From the IMG/VR virus record IMGVR_UViG_3300010400_000008, positions 1 to 56,745 of that record: a DNA stretch of 56,745 nucleotides; one strand, 5' to 3'. Position 1 is the first letter of the stretch, and every line of letters begins with the position of its first letter. This DNA comes from a virus. The notes under the pieces were generated by a model. The model saw only the letters and a program-made list of their open reading frames with translations, had not been told where the DNA came from and searched no databases. The position numbers were made by a program, and so were the translations under genes. This document shows, one piece after another, positions 18,351 to 44,596 of this stretch.

Positions 18351-18380
18351 AGTATATCAGATACTTATCTGATTAGTCAA
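18351..18380 (-). promoter_or_regulatory. Minus-strand promoter with operator in the spacer
   Basis: Read on the minus strand: TTGACT, 18-base spacer, TATACT, about 105 bases before the ATG at 18246. The spacer carries an 8-2-8 inverted repeat ATCAGATA-CT-TATCTGAT (18356-18373), so a dimeric regulator bound there would block RNA polymerase. The -35 overlaps the last codons of the gene at 18377. Local AT content is much higher than in the surrounding DNA. Confidence 0.7.
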
Positions 18381-19291
18381 GCATTTGTTACACGATCTTC
18401 TATCCGGTTTTGCCGATCAGATCCCTGGTCTTTATCCCACCACACAATCGCCAGCGCGACCCCATACGTGCTCACGACCAGCGCCCACTCCCACCCGAGC
18501 GCCGCATCCAGCACCACGCCGGTCCAGCTCGCCACGGCCAGCGCAAGCGCCTGGCGCGGCGTGCGCATCGCCAGCCAGAGCGGCAGATGGTCGTAGGAGC
18601 TGCCGGCGAACTGCGGCGCGAGACTGAGCAGCAGGATGAGCCGCGCGCGATCGTCCTTCCAGCGGAGCAGCCCGAGCGCCAGGAGCGGCAGGGTCAGGAT
18701 CGGGGCGGTGTGGCGCCCGGCGCCGACGTTCGTTAGCCACGCGAGCGGCCACTGCGGCCACACGAGCAGGCTGATCAGGACAATGCCCGCGCCGGCCAGC
18801 AGCGCCCGCCGGGCGGGCCGTGCGAGCCACAGCGCGGCGCCGATCGACGGCTTGGCGGCTAAGATGCAGCCGAGCCAGGGCAGGCCGGCAGCGGCGGTCA
18901 GCAGCGGCGACCACTGCCCATACACGACCGCGACCCACAGCGGCGCGGACAAGAGCATGCCCAGCAGGGCCGGGTGGGTGCGGTGGGCATAGGTGAGCAG
19001 CGCGACGGAGAGGCCGATAAAGAGAGCAGCGGCGATCGGGTCCGGCAGTGGGGTGAGGGGGAGCACGAGCAGCAGCGCGGGCAGGGGATAATAGAGCGGG
19101 GCATCGGCGGGGTAGTCGCGACCGGGGCCGAGCGCCGGATCGGCGTAGGAGTTGTGACCCGCGAGCAGCTGCCGCGCGCCACGCAGCGGCCAGGTCAGAT
19201 CCGCGGCGTGGCCCAGCGGCCAGAGGACTGCCAGGCACAGCGCGGCGGCCAGCAGGCCTGCGGCCAGCGGGATGAGGATGCGACGGGGCAT
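18377..19291 (-). CDS. Polytopic membrane protein, GT87-like
   Basis: A 304-residue protein with AAGGAG 5 bases before ATG and about eight hydrophobic segments, beginning with ILIPLAAGLLAAALCLAVLW. It has features of family 87 polyprenyl-phosphate sugar transferases: an early acidic/aromatic loop (GHNSYADP...), VYGQWSPLL and AAKPSIGAAL. These enzymes add mannose or arabinose to lipid-linked glycans. It is shorter than cellular members, so it may be a minimal enzyme modifying host surface glycans, for example for superinfection exclusion. Confidence 0.55.
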   Translation of the reverse strand: MPRRILIPLAAGLLAAALCLAVLWPLGHAADLTWPLRGARQLLAGHNSYADPALGPGRDYPADAPLYYPLPALLLVLPLTPLPDPIAAALFIGLSVALLTYAHRTHPALLGMLLSAPLWVAVVYGQWSPLLTAAAGLPWLGCILAAKPSIGAALWLARPARRALLAGAGIVLISLLVWPQWPLAWLTNVGAGRHTAPILTLPLLALGLLRWKDDRARLILLLSLAPQFAGSSYDHLPLWLAMRTPRQALALAVASWTGVVLDAALGWEWALVVSTYGVALAIVWWDKDQGSDRQNRIEDRVTNA

Positions 19292-20308: not shown

Positions 20309-20520
20309 GGGGTAGGCTCCTCTCCAATCCACCGGGCGTTGGCACTGGTCCAACGCCCGCTATTGATAAACTCAGCCGCCTGGCGCAGCGCGGCCTCTGT
20401 CCAGCGCCGATCGGCTATGGCAGGGTCGCGCACCGGCACCAGGTCGGACTCCATTGCCACATACACACCGTTCACTATCAGGAAGTAGCGGCCCTGCCTT
20501 AGAATGACCTCTGCGTTCAC
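20305..20520 (-). CDS. Small hypothetical protein
   Basis: A 71-residue protein embedded in a chain of ATGA overlaps. It reads RQGRYFLIVNGVYVAMESD then a helix TEAALRQAAEFINSGRW. The N-terminal strand pair could be a small beta domain. No family recognised. Confidence 0.5.
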   Translation of the reverse strand: MNAEVILRQGRYFLIVNGVYVAMESDLVPVRDPAIADRRWTEAALRQAAEFINSGRWTSANARWIGEEPTP

Positions 20521-21065
20521 TTCCCCTCCTTCATCTCCGCTGCCAGCGTATCGGCGTTGGCCTGGGCGGCCTCTTGGCTCTCACAACTGGTGCCGGTGAC
20601 CACGCCGATCACGGCGCGTGTCGTCGGGCTGTATACGTCCTGCGTGACGCTGTAGCAGGCGGTCTCGACATACACCACCACCGGCGTCTGGGTCGGCGGC
20701 TCCGCTGTGGCGGTAGGTGGCGCGGGCGTGGCGCTGGGGGCGATCGTCGCGGCCGGTGCGGCCGTGGGTGGGACGACGGCCGGCGCGGCGTTGGTCGCGG
20801 GCGGCCGCCGGGTGGTCGGCGATGGCAGGAACGAGATTGCGCCAATCACGGCCAGCACCACCACCAGGGCGCCGACGATGCCGGCGACCAGGCGCCGGTC
20901 GGTGCGCGGCTGCGCATCTGCTGGCGGGACGGCGGCGGGCGCGCTCCGCCGGTTGCTCCAGGTCCGCGCGCGGGCCGGCGGCGGCTCCTGCTGGGCGGCC
21001 GCGCGCCGCTCAGCCTCGATCATGATTCGACCGCGTTCGTCGCGATCCTCCTGTGTGATCTGCAT
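20517..21065 (-). CDS. Single-span membrane protein with Pro/Thr stalk
   Basis: A 182-residue protein. A charged N-terminal region precedes one transmembrane helix (VAGIVGALVVVLAVIGAISFL, about residues 60-80), then a Pro/Ala/Thr stalk with ATAEPPTQTPVVVYVETACY and an outer segment with two cysteines (ACY, TSCES). The stalk style is typical of Chloroflexota surface proteins. Likely type II membrane orientation. Role unknown. Confidence 0.5.
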   Translation of the reverse strand: MQITQEDRDERGRIMIEAERRAAAQQEPPPARARTWSNRRSAPAAVPPADAQPRTDRRLVAGIVGALVVVLAVIGAISFLPSPTTRRPPATNAAPAVVPPTAAPAATIAPSATPAPPTATAEPPTQTPVVVYVETACYSVTQDVYSPTTRAVIGVVTGTSCESQEAAQANADTLAAEMKEGK

Positions 21066-22294
21066 CAGCGCACCTCCACAAAGCGATAGGTATGCGGCTC
21101 GTCAGTTATGTCGACAATGATGCCGGTCGCGCGCCACACTTTGATCAGGTCGCTGGCCTGCGTCGAGCCGATGCCCGCCGCCGCCATCAGGCGGGCGCGC
21201 TTCCATCCGGTCGTGCCCAGCTCGCAGCGTGCGACCTGGAGCGTGTTCAGCTCGTTCGCGGCCGGGTCCGCGGCTTCGTACGCATTCGTGCGAATACGCG
21301 CATTCGCGGCCTCATCGGCGTTCGCGGCCGCGTTCGTTGTGCGTCCTGCTGCGATCGACGGTGCGGCCATCTCCACCATGGTATCGACTGGGCCGGCCGC
21401 ACGCGGCATGCGGATTGGCGCGGCCTCCGTCCGGTCGCGCGACTCGACAGAACGATCGGCGATGCCCAGATCGCGTAGGCTGATGCGCTGATCGGTCTCT
21501 GCCGCCGGCAGACTGGTCTGGGTCAGGCTCTCGCCGATGTACTCCAGGATCTCCTGGACATCATCGTTATCGGCCAGCGCCTCGAAGGGCATCATGGCAC
21601 CGCTCACCCGCTGCACGCTCTCACCCACCTCGCGCAGCGTGCGATCGATACCCGTGACCAGGCCGTGCATGACACCGGCCAGCTCCTCGCGCTCCTCGAT
21701 CGTCAGGTTCGCAAAGCCGAGCAGGGCCTTCTCCTGGGCGCGCAGCAGGGTCGCGCGCAAGATCGCGATGTCGGCCTGGGCTTGCAGCTCGTAGCGCTTG
21801 ACCAGGTGGGCCTGGCGCACCTGCTCGATGAGCTGATCGGGCGTGACCGGCGTCCAGAGCAGCGCCGGGATGATAATGAAGCCGATGATCCCGATCAGCA
21901 CCTGCTGGTAGACCAGGTTGCTGTCGGCCACCACCGGCTGCGCCTGCCACCAGCTCGTCTGAATGCGAAACGAGTAGTAGAATAGGAATAGCGCACAGCC
22001 GATGATGACCCCGTAGCCCCAGGTGCGCGCGTTGACCTTCTGGAGCAACATCCCCGCCGGCGACCACGGGATGAGGAACGAGGTCAGACTCGGCGGCGCC
22101 AGCACCAGGATCGCGGTGAAGGCTGCGGCGATCAGGCGATCGTCGGTGAGCTGGCTCTGCACACGCCACCAGTAGACCGCGCTGGCGCCCATGCCGATGA
22201 GCGCGATGAGGATAAGGCCGGTCTTGGCGGTGAACTCAAAGCCAGACGCGCGCCGCCCCTGCCGGCGCATCATATCCAGATAGCGGGATGACAT
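21065..22294 (-). CDS. Membrane-anchored protein with C-terminal winged-helix-like domain
   Basis: Encodes 409 residues from the ATG at 22294 (AAAGGA 8 bases upstream). Four hydrophobic segments occupy residues about 25-170 (GLILIALIGMGASAVYWW; LIAAAFTAILVLAPP; YGVIIGCALFLFYYSF; VLIGIIGFIIIPALLW). A long coiled coil follows. The last 70 residues (WKRARLMAAAGIGSTQASDLI then GIIVDITDEPHTYRFVEV) resemble a winged helix. An Ala/Asn-rich linker is encoded by GCGAA-rich DNA. Probably tethers DNA or a regulator to the membrane. Confidence 0.55.
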   Translation of the reverse strand: MSSRYLDMMRRQGRRASGFEFTAKTGLILIALIGMGASAVYWWRVQSQLTDDRLIAAAFTAILVLAPPSLTSFLIPWSPAGMLLQKVNARTWGYGVIIGCALFLFYYSFRIQTSWWQAQPVVADSNLVYQQVLIGIIGFIIIPALLWTPVTPDQLIEQVRQAHLVKRYELQAQADIAILRATLLRAQEKALLGFANLTIEEREELAGVMHGLVTGIDRTLREVGESVQRVSGAMMPFEALADNDDVQEILEYIGESLTQTSLPAAETDQRISLRDLGIADRSVESRDRTEAAPIRMPRAAGPVDTMVEMAAPSIAAGRTTNAAANADEAANARIRTNAYEAADPAANELNTLQVARCELGTTGWKRARLMAAAGIGSTQASDLIKVWRATGIIVDITDEPHTYRFVEVR

Positions 22295-22326
22295 TGCGCA
22301 CATCCTTTCGCGTGCGCGAGCCGTGG

Positions 22327-22375
22327 TACAATCCCACGCTCGCATTGCGTCCCTAAGAGCTTCCAATGTGAGCAC
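22327..22375 (+). promoter_or_regulatory. Antisense extended -10 plus hairpin in the leader of 21065-22294
   Basis: Plus-strand TGGTACAAT (22324-22332) is an extended -10. It is followed by a 10-bp stem, GCTCGCATTG with CAATGTGAGC. The layout repeats that at 18264, 23483 and 32634: a plus-strand promoter-like box and hairpin just upstream of a minus-strand gene. It may be a small antisense RNA or simply a leader hairpin. Confidence 0.25.
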
Positions 22376-22417
22376 CGCGCCGGTCGTTGTGCAAGCAGCG
22401 ACCGGCGCTCCGACTTC

Positions 22418-23464
22418 CTACCGATCCTCGATCAGATGGCCATTCGTCGCGGGTTTCAGCCACCCGCGCACGGTCGACTCGCTAAAGCCCAGCTCGCGGG
22501 CGATGTCGAGGAGCGACCGCCCACGCGCGAGTTGTTCGCGCACATGGGCCACGACTCGCGCGTGGGTCGGCGGCGTGTCGCCGAACACCATGATCTGTTC
22601 GCGAGCCTCGGCCAACGACTCGCGAAGCTGCACGATCTCCTGCTCCCGATTCGCGAGCCCAGCCTTCGCGTTCGCGACGGTTGCTCGCAGATTCGCGGCC
22701 TCATCGTGCTCGCTCGCGGCGATCGTGGTCTTGATATGGAGCTGTTCGCGGGCCTCGCTGAGCTGCTCGCGAAGCCGCACGATCGCTTGCTCCTGATTCG
22801 CGGCCTGTTCGCGCAGACTCGCGGCGTCGGCCGATCCGTTCGCGGCCTGTTGCTCGATCAGTGTGAGCCGTTCGCGAGCGCTCGCCTCCGATTCGCGAGC
22901 CAGGGCCAGATCGGACGTCGTGCTCGCGAGCAACGCCCGATCGTTCGCGGTTTGTTCGCGGAGGCTCGCGACTTGATCGCGGAGCGGCAGATCCACCGCC
23001 GTGCCGGCCGCCGCGATCAGGCGCTCGGCTAGCTTCGAGAGACACAAGATCAGCCCCGGCACGGCCAGGTTGACCGCGAACCAGAGCGCCGCCGCGACCG
23101 CATAGCGCGCGTCGACCCCCAGCCACGGCAGCGGCACATCACTCGCGCCGAACAGGAGGAGCGCCTGCCGGCCACCGCGCAGGTAGCCGGCGGTGAGGTT
23201 GGCCAGCGCCTGCACACTGAGCACCGCCACGAGCGCGCGGTTGGCCCAGGCGCGGGCCTGGAGGTCCAGGGCACTGAGCGCCCCGGCGCCGATGAGCAGC
23301 GCGACGGCGGCGAGCTCGACCACGATCGCGGCGGCCCAGGCGGCGGGCGCCCAGGTCTCAAACAGGCTAAACAGCCATTGGGTGCGCTCGATCGAGTAGC
23401 CCAGCAGCGCGATGAGCGCCAGGCCGGTCGCGATCGTCGCGGCGATGAGGAGTTTCCGATTCAC
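22418..23464 (-). CDS. Membrane-anchored coiled-coil protein with C-terminal HTH
   Basis: Encodes 348 residues from a GTG at 23464 with AAGGAG 8 bases upstream. Four hydrophobic helices fill residues 1-150 (LLIAATIATGLALIALLGY; AAIVVELAAVALLIGAGAL and others). Residues about 165-295 are a Gln/Glu/Ala coiled coil with repeated EQAAN and REQ units. The C-terminus GRSLLDIARELGFSESTVRGWL is a clear helix-turn-helix. Same plan as its neighbour 21065-22294 with a different DNA-binding end. Possible membrane anchor for phage DNA or partition. Confidence 0.6.
   Translation of the reverse strand: MNRKLLIAATIATGLALIALLGYSIERTQWLFSLFETWAPAAWAAAIVVELAAVALLIGAGALSALDLQARAWANRALVAVLSVQALANLTAGYLRGGRQALLLFGASDVPLPWLGVDARYAVAAALWFAVNLAVPGLILCLSKLAERLIAAAGTAVDLPLRDQVASLREQTANDRALLASTTSDLALARESEASARERLTLIEQQAANGSADAASLREQAANQEQAIVRLREQLSEAREQLHIKTTIAASEHDEAANLRATVANAKAGLANREQEIVQLRESLAEAREQIMVFGDTPPTHARVVAHVREQLARGRSLLDIARELGFSESTVRGWLKPATNGHLIEDR
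22480..23000. repeat. Dense TCGCG(A/G) array inside the coiled-coil gene
   Basis: In about 520 bases the pentamer TCGCG occurs roughly 25 times, often as TTCGCGAG, CTCGCGAA or TTCGCGG. On the coding strand it writes Arg-Glu (CGC GAA) and Ala-Asn/Ala-Ser (GCG AAC, GCG AGT). The neighbour gene has a shorter patch near 21255-21335, sharing ATTCGCGGCCTCATCG. It may only reflect low-complexity coiled coil, or be a DNA-binding array. Confidence 0.55.
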
Positions 23465-23482: not shown

Positions 23483-23515
23483 TATCATTGCGCCACGCGG
23501 GGTGGCGCTCGAGAC
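23483..23515 (+). promoter_or_regulatory. Antisense -10 box and hairpin upstream of 22418-23464
   Basis: Plus-strand TGCTATCAT (23480-23488) is an extended -10, with TTCACG 17 bases upstream as a weak -35. Directly after it, GCGCCAC and GGTGGCGC form a short stem with loop GCGG. It may act as an antisense RNA start or as a terminator/leader hairpin for the minus-strand operon. Confidence 0.25.
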
Positions 23516-23569: not shown

Positions 23570-24385
23570 CTACAGTGCGTTACCTGGCCCGTCGTCCATC
23601 GCCCGCAGCTCCGCCTCTTCCCGCTCCTGCTCGATCGCGTCCATCGCCGCATCGGCCTGCTGCTCGATCGTCGGCGTGGGGAGCGCGGCCTCCAGCCGGC
23701 CGAGATCGCCATCCGAACAGTCGAGCAGGGTGGCCTCGTGTTCCGCCGCCGCCTGCTGGGCGACTTTCATTGCGTGGGCATAGCGCAGCTTGCGGCTATC
23801 GCTGACATTGCCGCAGTTGATCAGCCGCTGGCCACCGACTTCCTTCAGGTCGATTGCGGTGGGCAGGATGACGACCAGCTTGGGCGGCTCGGGTGTGCCC
23901 TTCGGATGGCCCCAGCGATCCCAGTAGGTCATCAGCACCTGGTAGCGCGGTGCCGGGTCATACTTCGCCGGGCGATCGTTCTGCTCCAAGGTCGCATCGG
24001 CCTGCGCCTGGACGGCGGCGCGGCACTGCTGCCAAAGATCGGCCTCGATCGCGGCGGGGTCGTCGCCATCGTTGACGGTGGCGGTCAGCGTGAGCAGCGG
24101 CTTCACGTTGCTGTATTCGGGCAATCCGACGGTCTCACCATACGAGACGGTGACTTGGGTAATGCGCATGTGTATGCTCCTTCTCGGTCGATAGTGCCAA
24201 TAGCGCCCATCGATCTTCTCGCGGTCGATCCGCCCTTCTCGGGAGAGGTGCGTCAGCGCCATGCCGATCTGGCTCCACGCCGCCATGTCGCCAGGCGCGA
24301 GGAGTGCCGCCAGATCGCGGTGGCGGAGCGGGCGATCGGACTGCGCGATCGCCCGGATGAGTGCCGCGTCATAGTATCCCGCCAT
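23570..24385 (-). CDS. Winged-helix domain fused in frame to a conserved phage protein; internal start
   Basis: A 271-residue frame. Residues 1-72 look like a winged helix (DAALIRAIAQSDRPLRHRDL ... ALTHLSREGRIDREKIDGRY). Residue 73 is Met and begins MRITQVTVSYGETVGLPEYS, the usual N-terminus of a conserved phage/plasmid protein of unknown function. Just before it lies AAGGAG at 7 bases, so a 199-residue protein (23570-24169) is probably also made. Either two in-phase products are made or two genes fused recently. The acidic C-terminus is helical. Confidence 0.6.
   Translation of the reverse strand: MAGYYDAALIRAIAQSDRPLRHRDLAALLAPGDMAAWSQIGMALTHLSREGRIDREKIDGRYWHYRPRRSIHMRITQVTVSYGETVGLPEYSNVKPLLTLTATVNDGDDPAAIEADLWQQCRAAVQAQADATLEQNDRPAKYDPAPRYQVLMTYWDRWGHPKGTPEPPKLVVILPTAIDLKEVGGQRLINCGNVSDSRKLRYAHAMKVAQQAAAEHEATLLDCSDGDLGRLEAALPTPTIEQQADAAMDAIEQEREEAELRAMDDGPGNAL
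24169..24184 (-). promoter_or_regulatory. Strong internal ribosome binding site
   Basis: On the minus strand AAGGAG is placed 7 bases before an in-frame ATG (24169) inside the 23570-24385 frame. Its quality matches that of true gene starts in this operon, so it decides that a shorter product starting MRITQVTV is likely. Confidence 0.6.
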
Positions 24386-25528: not shown

Positions 25529-25740
25529 GGTCTTTCCTCACTCTGTTTCAGCGCCGCCGCGATCTTGGGGTCGCCTTCCAGGTTTGGGCAGCAGCCTGCA
25601 TGGAGACGCATCGCAGACGGGCGATCGGTGGAGTCGGCCGCGCCATACAGATAGATATGCGCGCCAGTGATCGGGCGGCTGCACCAGTCGCACTGCCAGC
25701 GCTTGCGCGGTCGTCGCACACAACGGGCGGTGAGCGTCAC
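25525..25740 (-). CDS. Small zinc-finger protein
   Basis: A 71-residue protein. WQCDWCSRPITGAHIYLYG and HAGCCPNLEG supply Cys and His for one zinc site, with a basic N-terminus (RRPRKRW). Linked by ATGA overlaps on both sides to the zinc-ribbon protein and the large ParB-like gene. Probably nucleic acid or protein binding; no closer family. Confidence 0.55.
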   Translation of the reverse strand: MTLTARCVRRPRKRWQCDWCSRPITGAHIYLYGAADSTDRPSAMRLHAGCCPNLEGDPKIAAALKQSEERP

Positions 25741-28721
25741 CCCGCCACCTCCATCGCTTCCGCCAGCCGCGCCTGCGCGTCGCCGATCCGCCGCGCCAGA
25801 TCCTCGTAGGCGTCGGTCGGGATCGTCGTGTCGTCGGCGAGAAGGTCGAGCCGGCGCCGGCAGTCGGCCAGCAGGCTGCGCGGGGTTATGCCAGTGTGGC
25901 CCCGCGCGACCTGGCCCTCGGCGGTGTCCAGCATCGAGGCGATCGCCGCCAGCGGGTCGGCCTCCAGCTCCGCCAGCGTCGGCGGTAGGCCGTGCTCGCT
26001 CAGCTCGGCCGGCATGGGCGCGTAGGGGGCTGGCGTCGCCGCCAGGAGCACGGCCACATGCTGCGCCGCCTGCTGCATCTCGTCATAGCGAAACATCGTG
26101 CTGGCCGGCGCCCGCTGAAGCGTGGCCGACATCTGGCCCAGCCAGGCCGCCGCCGCCTCGCGCGGCGTGGGCGTGCCGCTCGCGAAGCGCCGCAAGGTCA
26201 TCGCCAACGAGTGGTACATGGCGAGCGCCTCGTCGTAGGTGTAGTTGCCCGTTGTGCCGTCCGCCCAGACGATGTAGTGCCATACCCCGTCATCGTTGAC
26301 GATCGGCGTGTGGTACTGCGCGCCCAGCTGCTCGCGCAGGTCGTGCTCCTCTTCTCGCGCCGCGCAGGCCCGACAGCGATCGGCTAATGTCCCGCCGATG
26401 TTGTGGCGACCCACGCTCAGGTTGCCGCACGCGCACACCGGCGCCGCGCGCGCCGCATCCAGCCCGGCGAGATAGCCCAGCTCGTTCAGTGACATGTCGC
26501 CCGGCAGGATCTCTCCATCGCGCAGCCAGTTCGCGCCGCTCCAGTCGTAGCCCGCCAGCCACAGCGCGTCGATCAGGTCGTCGGGCGCATCGGGTAGGTC
26601 ATCTTCGTAGAGCCGCGCGCGCCAGGCGAGCAGCGCCAGGTGGGCGAGGTCAGACGCCGCGATCGCCTCGAACTCGTCATGGATCGCCGTGTAGGCGTGG
26701 AGGCCCGCCGGGCAGTCCGGGACGTAGATCACGCGCCAGGCGTGGTCAGTCAGCTCAGCCAGCGGGCGCGCCAGCTGTGTGGCCTCTGCAATCAGCGCGG
26801 CCGGGTCGTCGCCGCTGAGGGCCAGGCCGCAGGCGTGGCGCATGCCGATCGTGGTGTCGCCGTCGTTCCGCCAGATGGTCCAGCCGGCGGGGGCCGTGGG
26901 CAGGGCGGGCGCAATCGGGGCGGCCGGCTGCTCGATCGCCTCCAGCCGGCTCAGCACACCGTGCCAGGTGGCATTGCCGATACCGGGATGCGGCGCGGGC
27001 GGGTACATGGCGTAGCGATCGTCGGGATAGAAGCCGGGCTTGGTTACGCGCCAGCCGAGTGCTTGGAAGCGCGCCAGCACGGCATCAAAATCGGGCGGGA
27101 TGTCGCACGGCCAATCCCCGACCCCGGCGCGTGGTTGAGTCGTTGCCGCCGGCGGTCCATCCTCGCTCGCGCTGACCGCCGCTGCCAGCTCGTCGGGTGT
27201 GGCATCGGGCCGCTCGACGGCGAGTGCCGCCAGCGCGATCACGCCGGCGGCATCGGTGGCGTAGGCGTCGGCGCCCTTGGCCAGCCGGTACTCGGCGCCG
27301 GCGCGGCGTATCGTCCAGCCGCATGCCTCCAGTTGCCGCTCGGCTGCGACGGTGAGCCGGTGGGCAGCGGCGGCCGGCGCCCGCTGCTGTAGCTCCGCAT
27401 GGGTCTGCTCCTGCTTGTGCAACTCGATGCACAGCGACATCCAGCTGGCGACGTTTGCGACGCCGTTCAGGCCAGCATCGAGCAGGCTGTAGCCCTTCTC
27501 ATCCCGGCTGAGTGTCAGCCCGATCGCCTGCGCCCGTGCCTGCGCAGCGGCGTACTCGGCCGGCGTCGGCGCGTTTTTCGCGTTGCTTCGATCGCGGGCC
27601 TGCGCCTCGCTCTGCGCCGTCATCGTGGCGCTGGCGCAACGCGGGCAGAGCAGCTTGCCATCGATCTGCATCGAGCCTGGGGCGCCGTAGGGAGCGCCGC
27701 AGCCGCCTTCGCAGGAACGCGCCGGCGGCTCTATCGGCGGCACGCCGGGCAGGATTTTAATCCGCTGGTCGGTGATGACCAGTTCCTCGTTGCGATACCG
27801 CGCGAGGGTGCCAGGGCCGTTGCGCCCGTGCTTGGTCCAGGCCGCCACCTGACCAGGGTAGGCCGCACGCGACACCACCGCGCAGCCCTCAGCCGAGAGA
27901 AATGCCCCCGCCTTCGATAGCGAGGCGATACAGGCCCAGCGGCGGCCCGCGTAGTCGAACATGATAATCTTGCCCGTCTCGCTGTAGCTCATGGCCACAT
28001 TCTGCGCCGCAGCCCGATTGAGCAGGGAGGTGTCATGCACGATCAGCGGGTTCGGGATGGCAGTAGGGGCGGGGAATCCATCGGCGTGATTGACTGCGCC
28101 ACGCGCCTGATTCGCCGCCGCAATGCCGCTGGTGTCCATCGTGCGCCCATCGGCGGTCTTGCGCGCACTGGACGCGCGTCCAGTGCTCAGCCCGTGGCGC
28201 TCGGCGATCAACGCCACAAACACGTGGCTGACCTTGCAGCGCCGCGCGATCTCGCGGTCACTCCACTGCCCCCACTCCTCGTCTTGTAGTAGCACCAGCA
28301 CCGCGCGCTCCTTGTCGGCCCTGGTGCGCCTCAGGCCGTGATCGGCATTGGCGCCGGCGGCGTAGAGTACCGCGTCGCGCCGCGTGCCCTGGCGCACCTC
28401 GGCCCGGATCGCCGTTGGCGGCGCGGGGCGCTCCAGGGCTTGGAGCTGCGTGTAGGCCTCGAGACGGTGGAAGCCATCGGCCAGCCAGTAGGCCGATCCA
28501 TCGTGAAAGACCACGATCGGCGGGATGCGCTCCAGGCCGTTCTGGACGGAACACAGCTCGCGCATCGCCTCGACATACTCCGCAACGGCCGCCGGGTCGA
28601 GCCCGGCGCGGGCCTGCGTGCCGCCATCGATGCGGATGTGCTCCGGGCGGATAGCGGTGATCAGGGTGGCGGCCGGCGGGTCGGTGGTGGCAACGGCAGG
28701 TTCGATTAAGTCAGTGGTCAT
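25737..28721 (-). CDS. Large multidomain ParB/Srx-like protein
   Basis: Encodes 994 residues from the ATG at 28721 (GAGG 5 bases upstream). Residues about 25-115 resemble the ParB N-terminal domain (IRIDGGTQARAGLDPAAVAEYV; WLADGFHRLEAY). A helix-turn-helix follows near 155-180 (SDREIARRCKVSHVFVALIAE). Near residue 330 there is a C4 zinc site (CEGGCGAPYG ... CPRC). The remaining 650 residues show repeated small alpha/beta units (WTIRRAGAEYRLAKG; WTIWRNDGDTTIGMR). This is far longer than usual phage ParB-like proteins. It may act as a CTP/ATP-dependent DNA-binding protein or nuclease. Confidence 0.65.
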   Translation of the reverse strand: MTTDLIEPAVATTDPPAATLITAIRPEHIRIDGGTQARAGLDPAAVAEYVEAMRELCSVQNGLERIPPIVVFHDGSAYWLADGFHRLEAYTQLQALERPAPPTAIRAEVRQGTRRDAVLYAAGANADHGLRRTRADKERAVLVLLQDEEWGQWSDREIARRCKVSHVFVALIAERHGLSTGRASSARKTADGRTMDTSGIAAANQARGAVNHADGFPAPTAIPNPLIVHDTSLLNRAAAQNVAMSYSETGKIIMFDYAGRRWACIASLSKAGAFLSAEGCAVVSRAAYPGQVAAWTKHGRNGPGTLARYRNEELVITDQRIKILPGVPPIEPPARSCEGGCGAPYGAPGSMQIDGKLLCPRCASATMTAQSEAQARDRSNAKNAPTPAEYAAAQARAQAIGLTLSRDEKGYSLLDAGLNGVANVASWMSLCIELHKQEQTHAELQQRAPAAAAHRLTVAAERQLEACGWTIRRAGAEYRLAKGADAYATDAAGVIALAALAVERPDATPDELAAAVSASEDGPPAATTQPRAGVGDWPCDIPPDFDAVLARFQALGWRVTKPGFYPDDRYAMYPPAPHPGIGNATWHGVLSRLEAIEQPAAPIAPALPTAPAGWTIWRNDGDTTIGMRHACGLALSGDDPAALIAEATQLARPLAELTDHAWRVIYVPDCPAGLHAYTAIHDEFEAIAASDLAHLALLAWRARLYEDDLPDAPDDLIDALWLAGYDWSGANWLRDGEILPGDMSLNELGYLAGLDAARAAPVCACGNLSVGRHNIGGTLADRCRACAAREEEHDLREQLGAQYHTPIVNDDGVWHYIVWADGTTGNYTYDEALAMYHSLAMTLRRFASGTPTPREAAAAWLGQMSATLQRAPASTMFRYDEMQQAAQHVAVLLAATPAPYAPMPAELSEHGLPPTLAELEADPLAAIASMLDTAEGQVARGHTGITPRSLLADCRRRLDLLADDTTIPTDAYEDLARRIGDAQARLAEAMEVAG
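28165..28188. repeat. Palindrome copy inside the ParB-like gene
   Basis: Contains CACTGGACGCGCGTCCAGTG (28166-28185, perfect 20-bp palindrome). Twenty-four bases here are identical to 41806-41829 in the early-gene region, where the palindrome extends to 28 bp. Within the gene it codes for the segment just after the HTH. A candidate binding site for the protein encoded here. Confidence 0.7.
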
Positions 28722-29560
28722 ACAAACCTCGTCTGGTGCTGGCCGGCTGCTGCGGCGTTCAGCCACAGCACCTCGGTGCGCGTATTGCCTTTCTCCGCTT
28801 GCGTTTCGATTTCGCGCGTCTGCCAGTGGCTGAGCCGCGCGGCGTACAGGTCATTGTGGTAGCCCGAGAGCAGCACCGGGCCGGGATGGGCATCCAGTGC
28901 GTCGCATAGGGCCAGGTGATCGGCGTCGGTCATCTCGTGGCGATAGAGCTTCTTCCGGTGGCCGTGGTCGGTGTGGCGCACGTAGGGCGGGTCGGCGTAG
29001 ATCAGCGTCTCTTTGGTTGCGTACCGACCGATCACGGTGAGCGCGGGCAGACACTCGATCTCGGCGTCTTTGAGGAGCGCTGCGGCAATGGCCAGGCGTT
29101 CGGGAAGATCTGCCCAGGTCTCGTAGGTGTCGGCCAGCTGGCGCGCCGTCGCTTTATGGCTTTTGTGGCGCCAGCCATTGCGCGTGCAGATCGTCGTCCC
29201 GTGCGCCTGCCAGGTGGCGACCAGGAAGCGGCGCGCGTCTTCAACGAGGTCGCCACTCTCGACGATCGCGCCCGCCGGGCCGCTCACCGCCAGGTACTCG
29301 GCACGTGACCAGGGCGTGAACGCAACGGCGCGAATGAGATCTGTCTGGCGCTCCCGCAGCGCGCGAAAAAACAAATTGATATAGCAGTCGCGATCGTTCA
29401 GCACCAGGTGGCGCGGCCGATACCACAGATTAAGCGCGAACGCGCCCGAGCCGCAGTACGCATCGACGACCCGCATGCACTGTGGCACGTGGGATTGCAG
29501 CCAGTCGGCCAGGCGCCACTTCGCACCGGGATACTTCAGGATGGCGTCAACAGTGCTCAT
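28718..29560 (-). CDS. dam: DNA adenine methylase (Dam/D12 class)
   Basis: Encodes 280 residues from the ATG at 29560, coupled by ATGA at both ends. Motif X-like KYPGAKW is at residues 9-15, the SAM-binding DAYCGSGAFALN at about 33-44, and catalytic DPPY at 190-193. These define the alpha-class N6-adenine methylases, many of which methylate GATC. Specificity is not proven. Its operon includes the replication genes and the origin there is packed with GATC, so methylation control or protection of the origin is plausible. Confidence 0.88.
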   Translation of the reverse strand: MSTVDAILKYPGAKWRLADWLQSHVPQCMRVVDAYCGSGAFALNLWYRPRHLVLNDRDCYINLFFRALRERQTDLIRAVAFTPWSRAEYLAVSGPAGAIVESGDLVEDARRFLVATWQAHGTTICTRNGWRHKSHKATARQLADTYETWADLPERLAIAAALLKDAEIECLPALTVIGRYATKETLIYADPPYVRHTDHGHRKKLYRHEMTDADHLALCDALDAHPGPVLLSGYHNDLYAARLSHWQTREIETQAEKGNTRTEVLWLNAAAAGQHQTRFV

Positions 29561-30320: not shown

Positions 30321-30707
30321 CTACGCCGCCTGGGGCGTGGCCACGCCCCACAGCGAGAGCGAGAGCCGCAGCTGCGGCGTGATGGCCAGCGGCTGCCGCG
30401 TGGGCGCGGCCGGCGGGGCGGGCGTGTGGCCGACCGCCGCCTGAAGCGCCCGGAGGCGAGCGGCAAAGGCCGGATCGTCTCTGGCCAGGCGCCCACAGCG
30501 CTCGGTGTAATAACACACCGTCGTGTGGTCGCGTCCTAAGAGCAGGCCGATCTCGACCACGGTGTAGCCGTGGTCGCGCAAGATCGCCGTGATGGCGATG
30601 CGCGCCTGGGTGATACGGGCCCGGCGCCCGCGCCCGCTGCGCAGGTCGGCGACGGGCACGGCGAACAGCGCTGCGGCGGCGGTGATGACGGTGGCGGGGT
30701 CGATCAT
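30321..30707 (-). CDS. Stand-alone DnaA domain IV-like DNA-binding protein
   Basis: A 128-residue protein. Residues about 8-78 match the C-terminal DNA-binding domain of DnaA: ARITQARIAITAILRDHGYT, VVEIGLLLGRDHTTVCYYTE; RDHTTV is the DnaA signature contacting the DnaA box. Domains I-III (oligomerisation, ATPase) are absent. The tail is Pro/Ala-rich. It is coupled by ATGA to the helicase-loader gene. It might bind DnaA boxes in the phage or host origin, either recruiting or blocking initiation. Confidence 0.82.
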   Translation of the reverse strand: MIDPATVITAAAALFAVPVADLRSGRGRRARITQARIAITAILRDHGYTVVEIGLLLGRDHTTVCYYTERCGRLARDDPAFAARLRALQAAVGHTPAPPAAPTRQPLAITPQLRLSLSLWGVATPQAA

Positions 30708-31624
30708 GTCACCACCTCGTCGCGGTCCCAGGGGTCGAGCTCGTGGGCGATCGGCCGCACATCGGCGCCGCCCATCTCGACCAGGTGAAAGCGCCCATCG
30801 CGGATGCGGCTGGCCAGGAAGCTGGGGATGCGCGCCGCGCCATCCAGGTTGTAGCCGATGATCGTGCCGTACTGCGCCCGGCCCTGGTAGCGCGCCAGGA
30901 AGATGGCGTTCAGCACATCATCGACGAACGGGCTATCGCGGATCTTGTCCAGCTCATCGACCGCCAGGATCGGCGCTGCAATCAGGCGCCGCAGCCGCTC
31001 GCCATATAGCTCGGTGCCGATCGCGTCCCTGAGTTCGTTGAGCAGCTCGGGCATCATCACGTAGCGGCCGTAGATGCCCCGATCGGCCAGGTGGTTGAGC
31101 GCGGCGTAGATCAGCATCGTTTTGCCCACGCCATAGCCGCCGGCCAGGGTCAGCCAGCCGCGCGGCTGCACGATAAAGGCCCGAATCTTGGTACGGGCGG
31201 CGTCCTGCTCCGGCACGCGGCGGATGCGGCCGTTGGTCAAGCGCACGTCGTCGGCCTCCTCGGGCAGATTGCGCCATTTCTTCGCGCGCGCCTGGCCCGC
31301 CGCACAGGCGCAGGGGATGAGCGCCGGCGCATCGTCGCCATCGCCAAAGGTGTCCAGGATGACTAACCTATCGGCGCGCGCGGTGGCCTGCCGCTCCAGC
31401 AGGGTGCCGTGGCCGCTACACCGGCAGGTCGTCGTCGTCAAGCGGGCCGGCGGCTTCGATCTGGGCGAGCAGGGCGTCGTAGTCGACCGGGGCGGCGCTG
31501 CTGGCAGCTCGCGGCGGCCGATCATATCCACGACCACGTCGCCCATCGCCACCATGGGGGCGCTTGGGGGGTCGCTGATCATCAGCAGGTCGCTCGGGGC
31601 GATCCGCAGTATCTTGTTGTTCAT
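30704..31624 (-). CDS. DnaC/IstB-like AAA+ helicase loader
   Basis: Encodes 306 residues if started at the ATG at 31624. Cys pairs CRC and PCAC (about residues 67-106) form the zinc-type N-terminus common in phage DnaC proteins. Walker A GGYGVGKT is at 162-169, Walker B ILAVDELDK near 219-227. It should load the host DnaB helicase at the phage origin (lambda P role). The true start is uncertain: 31416-31624 is overlapped in another frame by the initiator C-terminus. The open frame extends further up to 32038 without a stop. Confidence 0.78.
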   Translation of the reverse strand: MNNKILRIAPSDLLMISDPPSAPMVAMGDVVVDMIGRRELPAAPPRSTTTPCSPRSKPPARLTTTTCRCSGHGTLLERQATARADRLVILDTFGDGDDAPALIPCACAAGQARAKKWRNLPEEADDVRLTNGRIRRVPEQDAARTKIRAFIVQPRGWLTLAGGYGVGKTMLIYAALNHLADRGIYGRYVMMPELLNELRDAIGTELYGERLRRLIAAPILAVDELDKIRDSPFVDDVLNAIFLARYQGRAQYGTIIGYNLDGAARIPSFLASRIRDGRFHLVEMGGADVRPIAHELDPWDRDEVVT

Positions 31625-32576
31625 GGCTTTGTCGTGCCTTTCTTCGTTCATAGGCCGGGGTGTCGCTGCCATAGCTGGCCGTGTCGCGCCAGCGATCGAG
31701 CGTCGATCGGATCGCCTTGACCGATCGGATGTCGCGCGAGATCGCCACCGCCAGAATCGCGCGGCCGACCCAGTAGAGGCCGTGGCCGCCGGTCGATTCG
31801 TTGTGTGCCAGCGCCATGGCGGCCAGCTGGCGCAGATCGAGCGGTCGCGGGTGCGGGCAGGCGTCGCGCCAGAGGTCGACCGGGTGCGCGGGCAGCGGCA
31901 GCTCCCCCTCGGGTGGCGGGGGCGGCGGAGCCGTGTTTGGTGGCAGGAGCTCCAGGGCCGCCTGCTGTTTTTTCGCGCGCGCGCGATCTCCTTCCTTCCT
32001 TCCTTCCTTCCTTCCTTCCAACGTGATCGATCGATCACGGTCGCCGTGATCCTTTGATAACGGTTGCCGTGATCGATCGATCACGGTGTCTGTGATCGAT
32101 CGATCACGGTCGCCGTGATCCTTTGATAACGGTTGCCGTGATCGATCGATCACGGTGAGATCCATCTCGGTTTGCAGTTCATGGCGTCCCGATGGCTTGC
32201 GCAAATTGCGTGTGCCGAGCTTGGCGAGATGCACCTGCGCGTCGCGATTCGAGGCGTCTAAAATCGATTCCCACGGGATTCGGTAGATCGGACGGTCAAA
32301 CTTGCCACCTTTGACCTCCTCGTACCCGACGATCTCGAGGAGATTCAGGGCGACCAGGTCGGTCAGCCAGCCCGTGACTCGGGGGTAGGCGCTGGTCCCC
32401 ATCTCGTCGGCGATCTCGCGGCTGCCGAACGCCGTGCGCTCGGTCAGGTCCATCAGTGCGCGGATCGCCAGCCAGCAGGCCAGCTGGTGCGGCGTGCAGC
32501 GCTTGCGCACCACGAACGGCACGCCGGTTTCGACCGCACGGTCCAGAATGTCACGGAGCATGCCGTGTGTTTTCAT
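31416..32576 (-). CDS. Replication initiator with internal origin (lambda O-like)
   Basis: Encodes 386 residues from the ATG at 32576. The N-terminal 130 residues are a winged helix (FVVRKRCTPHQLACWLAIRA; FGSREIADEMGTSAYPRVTG; LNLLEIVGYEEVKGGKF). Residues about 141-190 are encoded by the iteron array and contain two copies of a 23-residue repeat VIDRSRQPLSKDHGDRDRSI..., then EGRKEGRKEG encoded by the TTCC tract. A helical C-terminal domain (LRQLAAMALAHNESTGGHGL) probably binds the loader made from the next gene. Order initiator-origin-loader equals lambda O-ori-P. Confidence 0.78.
   Translation of the reverse strand: MKTHGMLRDILDRAVETGVPFVVRKRCTPHQLACWLAIRALMDLTERTAFGSREIADEMGTSAYPRVTGWLTDLVALNLLEIVGYEEVKGGKFDRPIYRIPWESILDASNRDAQVHLAKLGTRNLRKPSGRHELQTEMDLTVIDRSRQPLSKDHGDRDRSITDTVIDRSRQPLSKDHGDRDRSITLEGRKEGRKEGDRARAKKQQAALELLPPNTAPPPPPPEGELPLPAHPVDLWRDACPHPRPLDLRQLAAMALAHNESTGGHGLYWVGRAILAVAISRDIRSVKAIRSTLDRWRDTASYGSDTPAYERRKARQSHEQQDTADRPERPADDQRPPKRPHGGDGRRGRGYDRPPRAASSAAPVDYDALLAQIEAAGPLDDDDLPV
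31990..32019. repeat. Tetranucleotide tract (CCTT)7.5 within the initiator gene
   Basis: Seven and a half uninterrupted CCTT units (AAGG on the coding strand) next to the iterons. It codes for EGRK repeats in every frame. Such tracts change length by slippage. Loss of one unit (or gain of two) would move translation into the frame that is open from 32038 to the end of the loader gene at 30704. Confidence 0.95.
32022..32154. other. Replication origin: six iterons at 23-bp period
   Basis: Iterons of 18 bp start at 32022, 32045, 32068, 32091, 32114 and 32137. Four are the palindrome CGTGATCGATCGATCACG (first base T at 32091) and two are CGTGATCCTTTGATAACG, in order P-D-P-P-D-P, separated by 5-bp linkers. 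Each P holds three GATC sites and each D one, 14 in all. The site lies in the initiator gene as in lambda, so it is almost certainly the initiator-binding part of the origin. Confidence 0.88.
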
Positions 32577-33830: not shown

Positions 33831-34832
33831 GTGGATTACTACACAGGAGAGGTGTTCAAAGTCTCAACAATTCCTGGAGCTGATCGCGGGGCCGTTCACA
33901 TCCATGCAGCTGATGCAATGCAGCATCAGCAGACGACGAGGATGCCGTTGATGGATGTGGCCACGCTCCTGCCCCTCTGGCGCGCCGCGCTTGCCGCCGA
34001 CCACGCCGAGCGCACGGTGCGCTCCTACACCGACCATGTCATGGACTTCGTGCGCGGGCTCGGCCCGGCACCGACGATCGCCCAGATCACCCCGCCAGCG
34101 ATCGAGGCGTTTAAGACGCGGCTCGCACGCCGCTGTGTGCCCAGGACGATCGGGCTCGCGCTGACCGCCGTGCGCTCCTTCGTGCGCTGGCAGATTGCCA
34201 GTGAGCTGCGCGTCGACGACCCCACGCTCAAAGTGACCTTCCCCCGCCCCGGCAAATCACTGCCGCGCGCGCTCTCCGATGAGCAGGTGCGCGAGCTGAT
34301 GGGTGCGATCGCCCTGCCGGATGGGCTGCACCCCGCGCCGGCCTACCAGTGGCGGCGCAACCGGCTGGCGATCCTGCTCATGCTCTATGCGGGGCTCCGG
34401 ATCTCCGAGGCGGCGGATCTGCGCTGTCGTGATGTGTTCCTCGACCAGCGCAAGATCATCATTCGGGAGGCCAAGGGCGGCAAGGACCGCACGGTGCCGA
34501 TCCACGCTGTCCCCCTGGGGGAACTGCGACTCGCACTGGTCGATCGCCGGCCGAGTGACGCCGTCTGTGGCCACCCGACCGGCGATCCGCTGGCTAGGAA
34601 AAGTTTCCATCACGTGTTCGAGCGCTGGGTGCCGCGCCTGAACCTCTCATTCCACTTCACGCCGCACCAGCTGCGGCACACCTGCCTGACCAAGCTGATC
34701 GACACCGGCGCCAATGTGTTCGAGGCCCAGGAGATCGCCGGGCACGAAAGCCCCGAGACGACTCGGATTTACTACCGCCTCAGTGCCGAGCATCTCCGCG
34801 CGGCCATCGACCGGCTGCCAGTCACTTGGTAG
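33831..34832 (+). CDS. int: Tyrosine integrase
   Basis: Encodes 333 residues from a GTG with AGGAG 6 bases upstream. An N-terminal SAM-like core-binding domain (about 40-130) precedes the catalytic domain with R190 (AGLRISEAA), K near 215-218, HQLR at 279-282, H305 (GHES) and Y314/315 (RIYYRLS). All catalytic residues of the tyrosine recombinase family are present. The attP-like tRNA end lies 0.8 kb downstream. Main candidate for phage integration. Confidence 0.92.
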   Translation: MDYYTGEVFKVSTIPGADRGAVHIHAADAMQHQQTTRMPLMDVATLLPLWRAALAADHAERTVRSYTDHVMDFVRGLGPAPTIAQITPPAIEAFKTRLARRCVPRTIGLALTAVRSFVRWQIASELRVDDPTLKVTFPRPGKSLPRALSDEQVRELMGAIALPDGLHPAPAYQWRRNRLAILLMLYAGLRISEAADLRCRDVFLDQRKIIIREAKGGKDRTVPIHAVPLGELRLALVDRRPSDAVCGHPTGDPLARKSFHHVFERWVPRLNLSFHFTPHQLRHTCLTKLIDTGANVFEAQEIAGHESPETTRIYYRLSAEHLRAAIDRLPVTW

Positions 34833-43561: not shown

Positions 43562-44596
43562 ATGGAAAATAGGTATCGAAAAGTCCGCTTTAAACTAGCT
43601 ATTTCTCCCATGCCACCCCTCGATCCTCCAGAGGCGGCGCCGCTGGTCGCAGTATCACCCGGTGATATCACACGGCGCCTCGACGAGCACCCCGCCGCCG
43701 TCTATCTCGCGCAGCTCACCACGCGCAGCCGCCGCACCCAGGCCTCCGCCCTCGACCAGGTGGCGCAGCTGCTGGGCTATGGGAGTGCCCTGGCGTGCCC
43801 GTGGCACCAGCTCAGCTACGCCCACACCGCAGCACTCCGCACCGCCCTGGCTGAGCGCTACGCCCCGGCCACGGCCAACCGCATGCTGGCAGCGCTCCGG
43901 CGGGTGTTGCAGGAGTGCTGGCGCCTGGGGCTGATGACGGTGGAGGCGTATGAGCGCGCCGCCGATCTGAAGGTCGTGAAAGAGGAGAAGCTGCCGAGTG
44001 GCCGCGCGCTCGATCCGTCCGAGGTGGCGGCGCTCTTTGCGGTGTGCGCGGGCGACTCGACCCCGGCCGGCGTGCGCGACGGCGCCTTGCTCGCGCTGCT
44101 GCTGGCGACCGGCCTGCGGCGCTCCGAGGCCGTGGCACTCGACCTGGCCGACTACACGCCCGCCAGCGGCGCGCTGAAGGTCCGCTCGGGGAAGGGTCGC
44201 AAGGATCGCCTGGTCTACGTCGGCGCGGCGGTGGCCGTGCTGGCATTGGCCGACTACCTGACGATCCGCGGGGCCTGGCCAGGGCCGCTGTTCGTCGCCG
44301 GGCGGCGCGGTGGGCATCTCCTGACCAGCCGTATGACTGATCAGTCGATCGCGCTCATCCTCGCACGTCGCGCCGCCCAGGCAGGTATCGCCGACGTATC
44401 ACCCCACGATCTGCGCCGCACCTTCGTGACCAATCTCCTGGACGCCGGCGCCGATATCGCGACCGTGCAGAAGCTGGCCGGGCACGCCGATCCCGCGACC
44501 ACGGCGCGCTACGACCGGCGTGGCGAGCAGGCAAAGCACGACGCGGCGGCGCTGCTCGATCTGCCGCCGATCCGGCGCACGCTGCCGCTGGACTAG
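43562..44596 (+). CDS. Second tyrosine recombinase
   Basis: A 344-residue protein (or 328 from the Met at residue 17, 43610). N-terminal core-binding domain with 'AALRTALAERYAPATANRML', then catalytic residues R186 (ATGLRRSEA), K near 211-214 (GKGRKDR), HDLR at 282-285, H308 (GHADP) and Y317 (ARYDRRG). XerC/D-like in style and unlike 33831-34832. Could resolve genome multimers, act as a second integrase, or act at the adjacent palindromes. The start has only a weak ribosome site. Confidence 0.9.
   Translation: MENRYRKVRFKLAISPMPPLDPPEAAPLVAVSPGDITRRLDEHPAAVYLAQLTTRSRRTQASALDQVAQLLGYGSALACPWHQLSYAHTAALRTALAERYAPATANRMLAALRRVLQECWRLGLMTVEAYERAADLKVVKEEKLPSGRALDPSEVAALFAVCAGDSTPAGVRDGALLALLLATGLRRSEAVALDLADYTPASGALKVRSGKGRKDRLVYVGAAVAVLALADYLTIRGAWPGPLFVAGRRGGHLLTSRMTDQSIALILARRAAQAGIADVSPHDLRRTFVTNLLDAGADIATVQKLAGHADPATTARYDRRGEQAKHDAAALLDLPPIRRTLPLD

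Follow-up and report, generated by a model that had tools for sequence, protein, structure and literature searches.

Why does a phage keep, side by side in its replication operon, two genes for membrane proteins that both end in a DNA-binding-type domain? The question is raised by the virus record IMGVR_UViG_3300010400_000008, whose whole stretch of 56,745 nucleotides is called the window here, and it concerns two neighbouring minus-strand genes, gene 1 and gene 2 (Table 1). A sequence-only reading had given both of them four transmembrane (TM) helices, a long coiled coil and a C-terminal domain of helix-turn-helix (HTH) or winged-helix type. The two genes are where it placed them, and their membrane helices and HTH folds are predicted by our analysis as well; the coiled coil was found in gene 1, whereas gene 2 has a helical hairpin and a disordered linker. 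We propose, with about an even chance of being right, that the pair tethers phage DNA to a site on the host membrane for replication or partition.

A host-derived membrane half in gene 2

Contigs of genomes were scanned with a two-phage alignment and 26 relatives of gene 2 were detected in Roseiflexus, Kouleothrix, Herpetosiphon, Viridilinea and similar metagenome-assembled genomes. The host protein is an unnamed conserved membrane protein of Chloroflexia, labelled p4TM here. Matches to its family were present in 70 of the 158 Chloroflexia genomes and in 29 of 301 genomes drawn evenly from the phylum, practically all of the latter belonging to the same class. Residues 1-258 of gene 2 share 66-76% identity with the compared host copies, and gene 2 has the four TM helices and the helical hairpin, a domain of about 260 residues, at the identity level of the family. 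The host copies end in variable, charged tails without a winged helix, and most of them are flanked by genes for proteins of ~120 aa and ~80 aa, followed by nadD and often by rsmG. The phage carries no other gene of this operon and gene 2 does carry a winged helix, so that within the p4TM family its membrane half counts as derived and fused. Because the close relatives of gene 2 are all in Chloroflexia, we take this class as the host group of the phage. No close relative was found by pattern search in IMG/VR or by tblastn in INPHARED, no homologue was found in plasmids, and no model of Pfam or NCBIfam matched the p4TM family at a meaningful score.

In a maximum-likelihood tree the window copy was located within the host radiation, in a clade of 28 rows with support of 98/93, and the copies of G002, L060-L062, L063 and L069 formed a separate deep group. 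The branch of the window copy is long, and the tree resolved no exact sister for it. The host operon (~120-aa protein, p4TM, ~80-aa protein and nadD) is itself conserved in Chloroflexia and undescribed; it can be seen in L022:4582-6792, L035, L016 and others, and several Roseiflexus-type contigs have two SPFH/Band 7 genes upstream of it. Three IMG/VR contigs (L011, L012 and L013) hold a host-type four-TM gene and few others, with no phage hallmark in the stretch read, and may not be viral.

The model of gene 2, built by AlphaFold2 (AF2) with 33 aligned relatives, showed membrane helices at residues 23-49, 53-74, 92-118 and 128-147, the hairpin at 152-231, the linker at 260-322 and the winged helix at 344-409; hydropathy detected three strong hydrophobic segments. 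A GTG upstream, at 22375, is an unlikely start because the host homologues begin at the ATG at 22294. The positive-inside counts placed both termini clearly in the cytoplasm, and the extracytoplasmic parts are of about 4 and 9 residues. When compared with solved winged HTH (wHTH) domains, the C-terminus gave Z values of 8-10 over about 60 residues, so that in the model it has the wHTH fold; values of this middling size support the fold and not a family. Foldseek gave no significant match of the membrane domain in PDB and BFVD, which is no proof of a new fold.

The winged helix was present in six other loci; it was found in those diverged element copies whose C-terminus is complete, and in none of the aligned host copies. 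The comparison with G002, a phage sharing 67% TerL identity with the window, gave 29% identity in the membrane domain and 44% in the winged helix; with the phage L014 the values were 67% and 29%, respectively. These comparisons indicate that gene 2 is a mosaic of a host membrane domain and a mobile-element winged helix. The simplest reading of the identities is that membrane halves and winged helices were recombined, the membrane half of the window having come from a host copy; the captures in the window and in L014 may have been one event or two. The search for further phages with a diverged gene 2 returned only G002 itself. In L060, L061 and L062, three related host genomes, a diverged gene 2 with winged helix is flanked by very large proteins that share an end motif of the GFRVVAAP type.

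Gene 1 and the recurrence of the pair

Gene 1 codes for 348 aa from the GTG start at 23464, or for 356 aa from an ATG at 23488. In Pfam its C-terminus matched HTH_28 (E 1.1e-4) and HTH_23 (E 1.4e-4), both under the curated cut-offs. The single-sequence AF2 model showed a confident coiled-coil helix and a three-helix HTH, with the membrane part poorly modelled; a fold search with this part was dropped as meaningless, the model being too weak. Charge counts favoured cytoplasmic N- and C-termini, weakly. In the topology check that the sequence-only reading had suggested, the C-termini of both proteins are thus predicted to be cytoplasmic, and the prediction is clearer for gene 2.

No homologue of gene 1 was found by pattern search in IMG/VR or by tblastn in INPHARED, and the 158 Chloroflexia genomes gave only three weak coiled-coil/HTH matches and no homologue (L042, one of the three, was opened and was unrelated). 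Kinship of its TM domain with DUF2637, which we take to be the SpdB-type domain, was not supported: hhalign against nine DUF2637 sequences was no better than shuffled controls, and the Pfam search of gene 1 and gene 2 showed no match to DUF2637 (PF10935). Concerning DUF2637 in other phages, the protein often annotated as excisionase beside the integrase, in L089:21544-22017 and 547 actinophage records, is a four-TM DUF2637 protein (RGL3 gp23, Pfam E 1.4e-12), and Gordonia phage Jace gp27, considered as another, was discarded as an IrrE-like protein.

The coding sequence of gene 1 is also rich in CGCGAA/TTCGCG, with 17 copies against 52 in the remaining genome, and 16 of the 17 are in the part that codes for the coiled coil and what comes after it. 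The coding strand has seven CGCGAA read in frame, as Arg-Glu, and another seven read in a different frame, as x-Ala-Asn or similar. Each of the seven GAA codons of the gene comes after CGC (Fisher p 2.5e-4), the CGCGAA count was above all 2000 synonymous-codon shuffles, and it was the strongest hexamer outlier across the window genes of 150 aa or more. The copies follow two main phases, 10-11 bp apart, on a 21-bp register, which results in a motif about every 10.5 bp. By analogy with sps inside spdA2 (PMC4170104), this may be an array of binding sites, under selection at the DNA level; it may also be a remnant of degenerate 21-bp duplications behind the heptads. A gene-embedded motif was not a general feature, as gene 1 of G002, L066 and other relatives were not clear outliers, and because they show no clear counterpart the array is kept as a lead.

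The pair was sought in other genomes, as had been suggested, and a partner adjoins the gene 2 homologue twice more. In G002 this homologue is directly preceded by a gene whose product combines TM segments with a coiled coil and an HTH-like C-terminus, and it is followed by a gene for a single-TM protein. In L066, a host-genome contig, the winged-helix end of gene 2 is followed by a short open reading frame and then by a protein with TM segments, coiled coil and HTH. Similarity in sequence to gene 1 was not detectable in the partners of G002 and L066, and the TM domains of the gene 1-type partners showed no homology to each other except L066-L074. A partner of this type is frequent beside gene 2, not constant.

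Genomic context and the tethering proposal

A 123-bp direct terminal repeat indicates that the window is a complete genome and, by inspection, it is that of a temperate siphophage, with genes for tail proteins and terminase. Two tyrosine integrases (33951..34832 and 43610..44596) are coded within this single phage genome. As previously read from the sequence, the pair belongs to the replication operon, in which the upstream genes of this strand include those for a DnaC-like loader, a DnaA domain IV protein, a D12 methyltransferase and a ParB-like protein. The DnaA domain IV protein, of 128 aa and without the ATPase part, stands beside the loader. The ParB-like protein is assigned from PHROGs alone, its Pfam search giving no ParB match, and the 271-aa protein had no match in Pfam. 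A search for ParA (AAA_31, PF13614) in the complete window genome found none, with the L014 phage as a strong positive control; of the ParABS components (ParA ATPase and ParB-like protein) the window has only the ParB-like PHROG match. Proteins with one or two hydrophobic segments also come after the gene 2 homologues in G002, L014 and L060-L062, and no sequence similarity was found between them and the single-TM protein of the window. Towards the far end of the operon, positions 18377..19291 code for a 304-aa protein with six or more hydrophobic segments by hydropathy.

Table 1. Coordinates of the two genes, their domains and the neighbouring genes in the window.
Feature	Position	Strand	Evidence
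Gene 2, 409 aa: host-type four-TM domain, helical hairpin, disordered linker, winged helix	21065..22294	-	
Gene 2 membrane half, residues 1-258	21521..22294	-	66-76% identity to host proteins; host-family tree
Gene 2 linker, mostly disordered, residues 260-343	21266..21517	-	Predicted local distance difference test (pLDDT) under 50 over 261-323
Gene 2 winged-helix DNA-binding-type domain, residues 344-409	21068..21265	-	AF2 pLDDT 75-90; wHTH matches
Gene 1: four TM, coiled coil, HTH	22418..23464	-	Gene call, hydropathy, Pfam, AF2
Gene 1 membrane domain, four hydrophobic segments, residues 5-141	23042..23452	-	Hydropathy; low-confidence AF2 helices
Gene 1 coiled coil, 21-bp/heptad register, residues 144-295	22580..23035	-	AF2 pLDDT about 76-91 over most
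Gene 1 C-terminal HTH, LLDIARELGFSESTVRGWL, residues 300-337	22454..22567	-	Pfam HTH_28/HTH_23; AF2 three helices
CGCGAA/TTCGCG array in gene 1 coding sequence	22535..22960	.	17-fold enrichment
Single-TM protein after gene 2	20517..21065	-	Position and hydropathy
271-aa protein directly upstream of gene 1, same operon	23570..24385	-	Gene call
ParB-like protein, 994 aa, same operon	25737..28721	-	phrog_1033 E 8e-21
D12-class adenine methyltransferase, same operon	28718..29560	-	PF02086 E 6e-18
DnaA domain IV (origin-binding type) protein	30321..30707	-	PF08299 E 2.2e-9, above cut-off
DnaC-like helicase loader	30704..31651	-	phrog_50 E 1.2e-17

Partition genes were also found beside relatives of gene 2. 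The order in L014 is ParA (PHROG E 5e-63), a DUF3102-like protein, a small HTH protein, gene 2 and a single-TM protein. In L068 it is a serine recombinase, a DnaB helicase, a membrane protein, a host-type four-TM protein without winged helix and an actin-like partition protein; L068:259-10395 is an apparent integrated element.

In the mechanism proposed, each protein would be inserted in the cytoplasmic membrane by its four helices and would hold DNA through the cytoplasmic C-terminal domain. Both together would retain the phage genome at the membrane while it is excised or replicating, and this would serve its replication, its segregation or both, with participation of the ParB-like protein. 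Since gene 2 has copied its membrane half from a protein conserved in Chloroflexia, the tether probably joins the assembly of p4TM in the host; gene 2 would dock into it and thus park the phage DNA at a membrane site defined by the host. The sequence-only reading had listed anchoring of phage DNA or its origin, or partition, among its options, and this is the best supported of them, considering the predicted inside location of the C-termini, the operon with a ParB-like gene, the ParA of L014 and the actin-like protein of L068; the DNA binding itself is predicted.

Taking into account the common occurrence of such folds in regulators, the pair might instead be membrane-bound one-component transcription switches that control phage genes, such as late genes or those for lysogeny, according to the state of the membrane. 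The C-terminal folds are typical of common regulators (MarR/IclR-like wHTH and HTH_28) and there are small HTH genes beside gene 2 in L014 and L060, but the gene context is one of partition and replication and not a repressor region, and the short extracytoplasmic parts of gene 2 leave little to sense with. We consider this improbable, and sensing of the envelope state, which had also been suggested, is not favoured because gene 2 is almost devoid of extracytoplasmic residues. DNA positioning is preferred to transcriptional sensing mainly because partition genes recur beside the relatives. It is somewhat more doubtful still that gene 2 mixes into the host assembly and poisons or reprograms it, as in superinfection exclusion or takeover, with a winged helix that regulates only its own operon. 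The membrane half is close enough to the host protein in sequence for co-assembly to be likely, and another mobile element also carries a host-type copy without winged helix; however, the recurrent winged helix, the TM-HTH partner and the ParA, ParB and actin neighbours would be unexplained. We regard as the least likely of these explanations that the DNA-binding-like domains have lost DNA binding and now mediate protein interactions, with the pair forming a scaffold at the membrane for other proteins of the phage, such as the single-TM protein that follows. Winged helices also serve as protein-interaction modules, the fold matches of gene 2 include the cullin WHB domain, and the HTH sequence scores are under the curated cut-offs; nevertheless, two unrelated HTH types in the same place of neighbouring genes, again in G002 and L066, point to DNA.

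Several observations weigh against tethering. Both HTH assignments are based on weak sequence scores and predicted folds. L014 and L060-L062 lack a gene 1-type partner beside gene 2 and have a small HTH gene upstream instead. The host-type membrane protein occurs without the winged helix in the element copies of L068 and probably L067, so that the use of this protein by elements need not involve its DNA binding. A broader and rather speculative form of the tethering proposal, which we think unlikely, is that phages and plasmid-like elements in Chloroflexia have repeatedly captured the membrane domain from a conserved scaffold protein of the host and joined a DNA-binding winged helix of their own to it, which would park the DNA of the element at a membrane site defined by the host. 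Together with a second membrane-HTH protein that has the binding-site array in its own gene, this would make up a segregation system without ParA.

The placement of DNA in the cell by phages and mobile elements is known from few systems only. If the tethering proposal is true, the fusion of host domain and winged helix would be a direct molecular link between the phage genome and a membrane structure of the host, and it would give a handle on a conserved, undescribed Chloroflexia membrane protein which, in Roseiflexus-type genomes, is adjoined by two SPFH-domain genes.

Comparison with known systems

The p16.7 protein of phage phi29 is a small protein in which a single TM helix is combined with a coiled coil and a DNA-binding domain at the C-terminus, and it acts with the terminal protein and the displaced single-stranded DNA. 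As an integral membrane protein with DNA-binding activity, it organises the replication of phage DNA at the membrane (PMC4974454). Judged by description, gene 1 may be comparable to it, with a predicted order of TM anchor, coiled coil and C-terminal DNA-binding domain but with four TM segments; unlike p16.7, the window has two four-TM proteins, with HTH and wHTH domains and a host-derived membrane half. The sequence-only reading knew of no described phage system with such a pair. Membrane-tethered DNA-binding phage proteins such as p16.7 are known (PMC4974454), although this exact pair was not found described in the literature consulted.

FtsK/SpoIIIE proteins have four N-terminal TM helices, a linker and a C-terminal winged helix (the gamma domain), and the gamma domain of Escherichia coli FtsK was among the weak fold matches of gene 2. 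Unlike them, gene 2 has no motor domain: neither a Pfam hit to FtsK_SpoIIIE nor a RecA-like motor in the model was seen, and its membrane domain has no Pfam match.

Other replicons offer precedents for single features. SpdB2 of Streptomyces plasmids is a membrane-tethered DNA-binding protein, and SpdA2 binds short palindromes within its own gene and affects segregational stability (PMC4170104). The motif array embedded in gene 1 resembles the case of SpdA2 and sps, while the motif, the hosts and the HTH types differ and the TM domain has no detectable relation to DUF2637. RocS of Streptococcus pneumoniae is membrane-bound, with a coiled coil and a DNA-binding domain, and serves chromosome segregation (PMC11500499); unlike the window pair, it is chromosomal, with an N-terminal DNA-binding domain, a C-terminal amphipathic helix and no TM helices. 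The AlpA/AlpC system of prophage CGP3 is a case of phage-encoded DNA positioning; it was proposed to move phage DNA to the membrane, where it is replicated, and has a repeat array for the adaptor (PMC4446434), and it differs from the pair in using an actin-like filament and no membrane-spanning DNA-binding protein.

The tests of sequence kinship covered DUF2637 and the curated family libraries and gave no relation to either. In the limited open-access literature consulted, we found no description of this gene pair or of a winged helix from mobile elements joined to a membrane domain of the host. The fusion with a host domain and the pairing appear new, within a kind of membrane-tethered DNA-binding protein already known from phi29 p16.7, SpdB2 and RocS.
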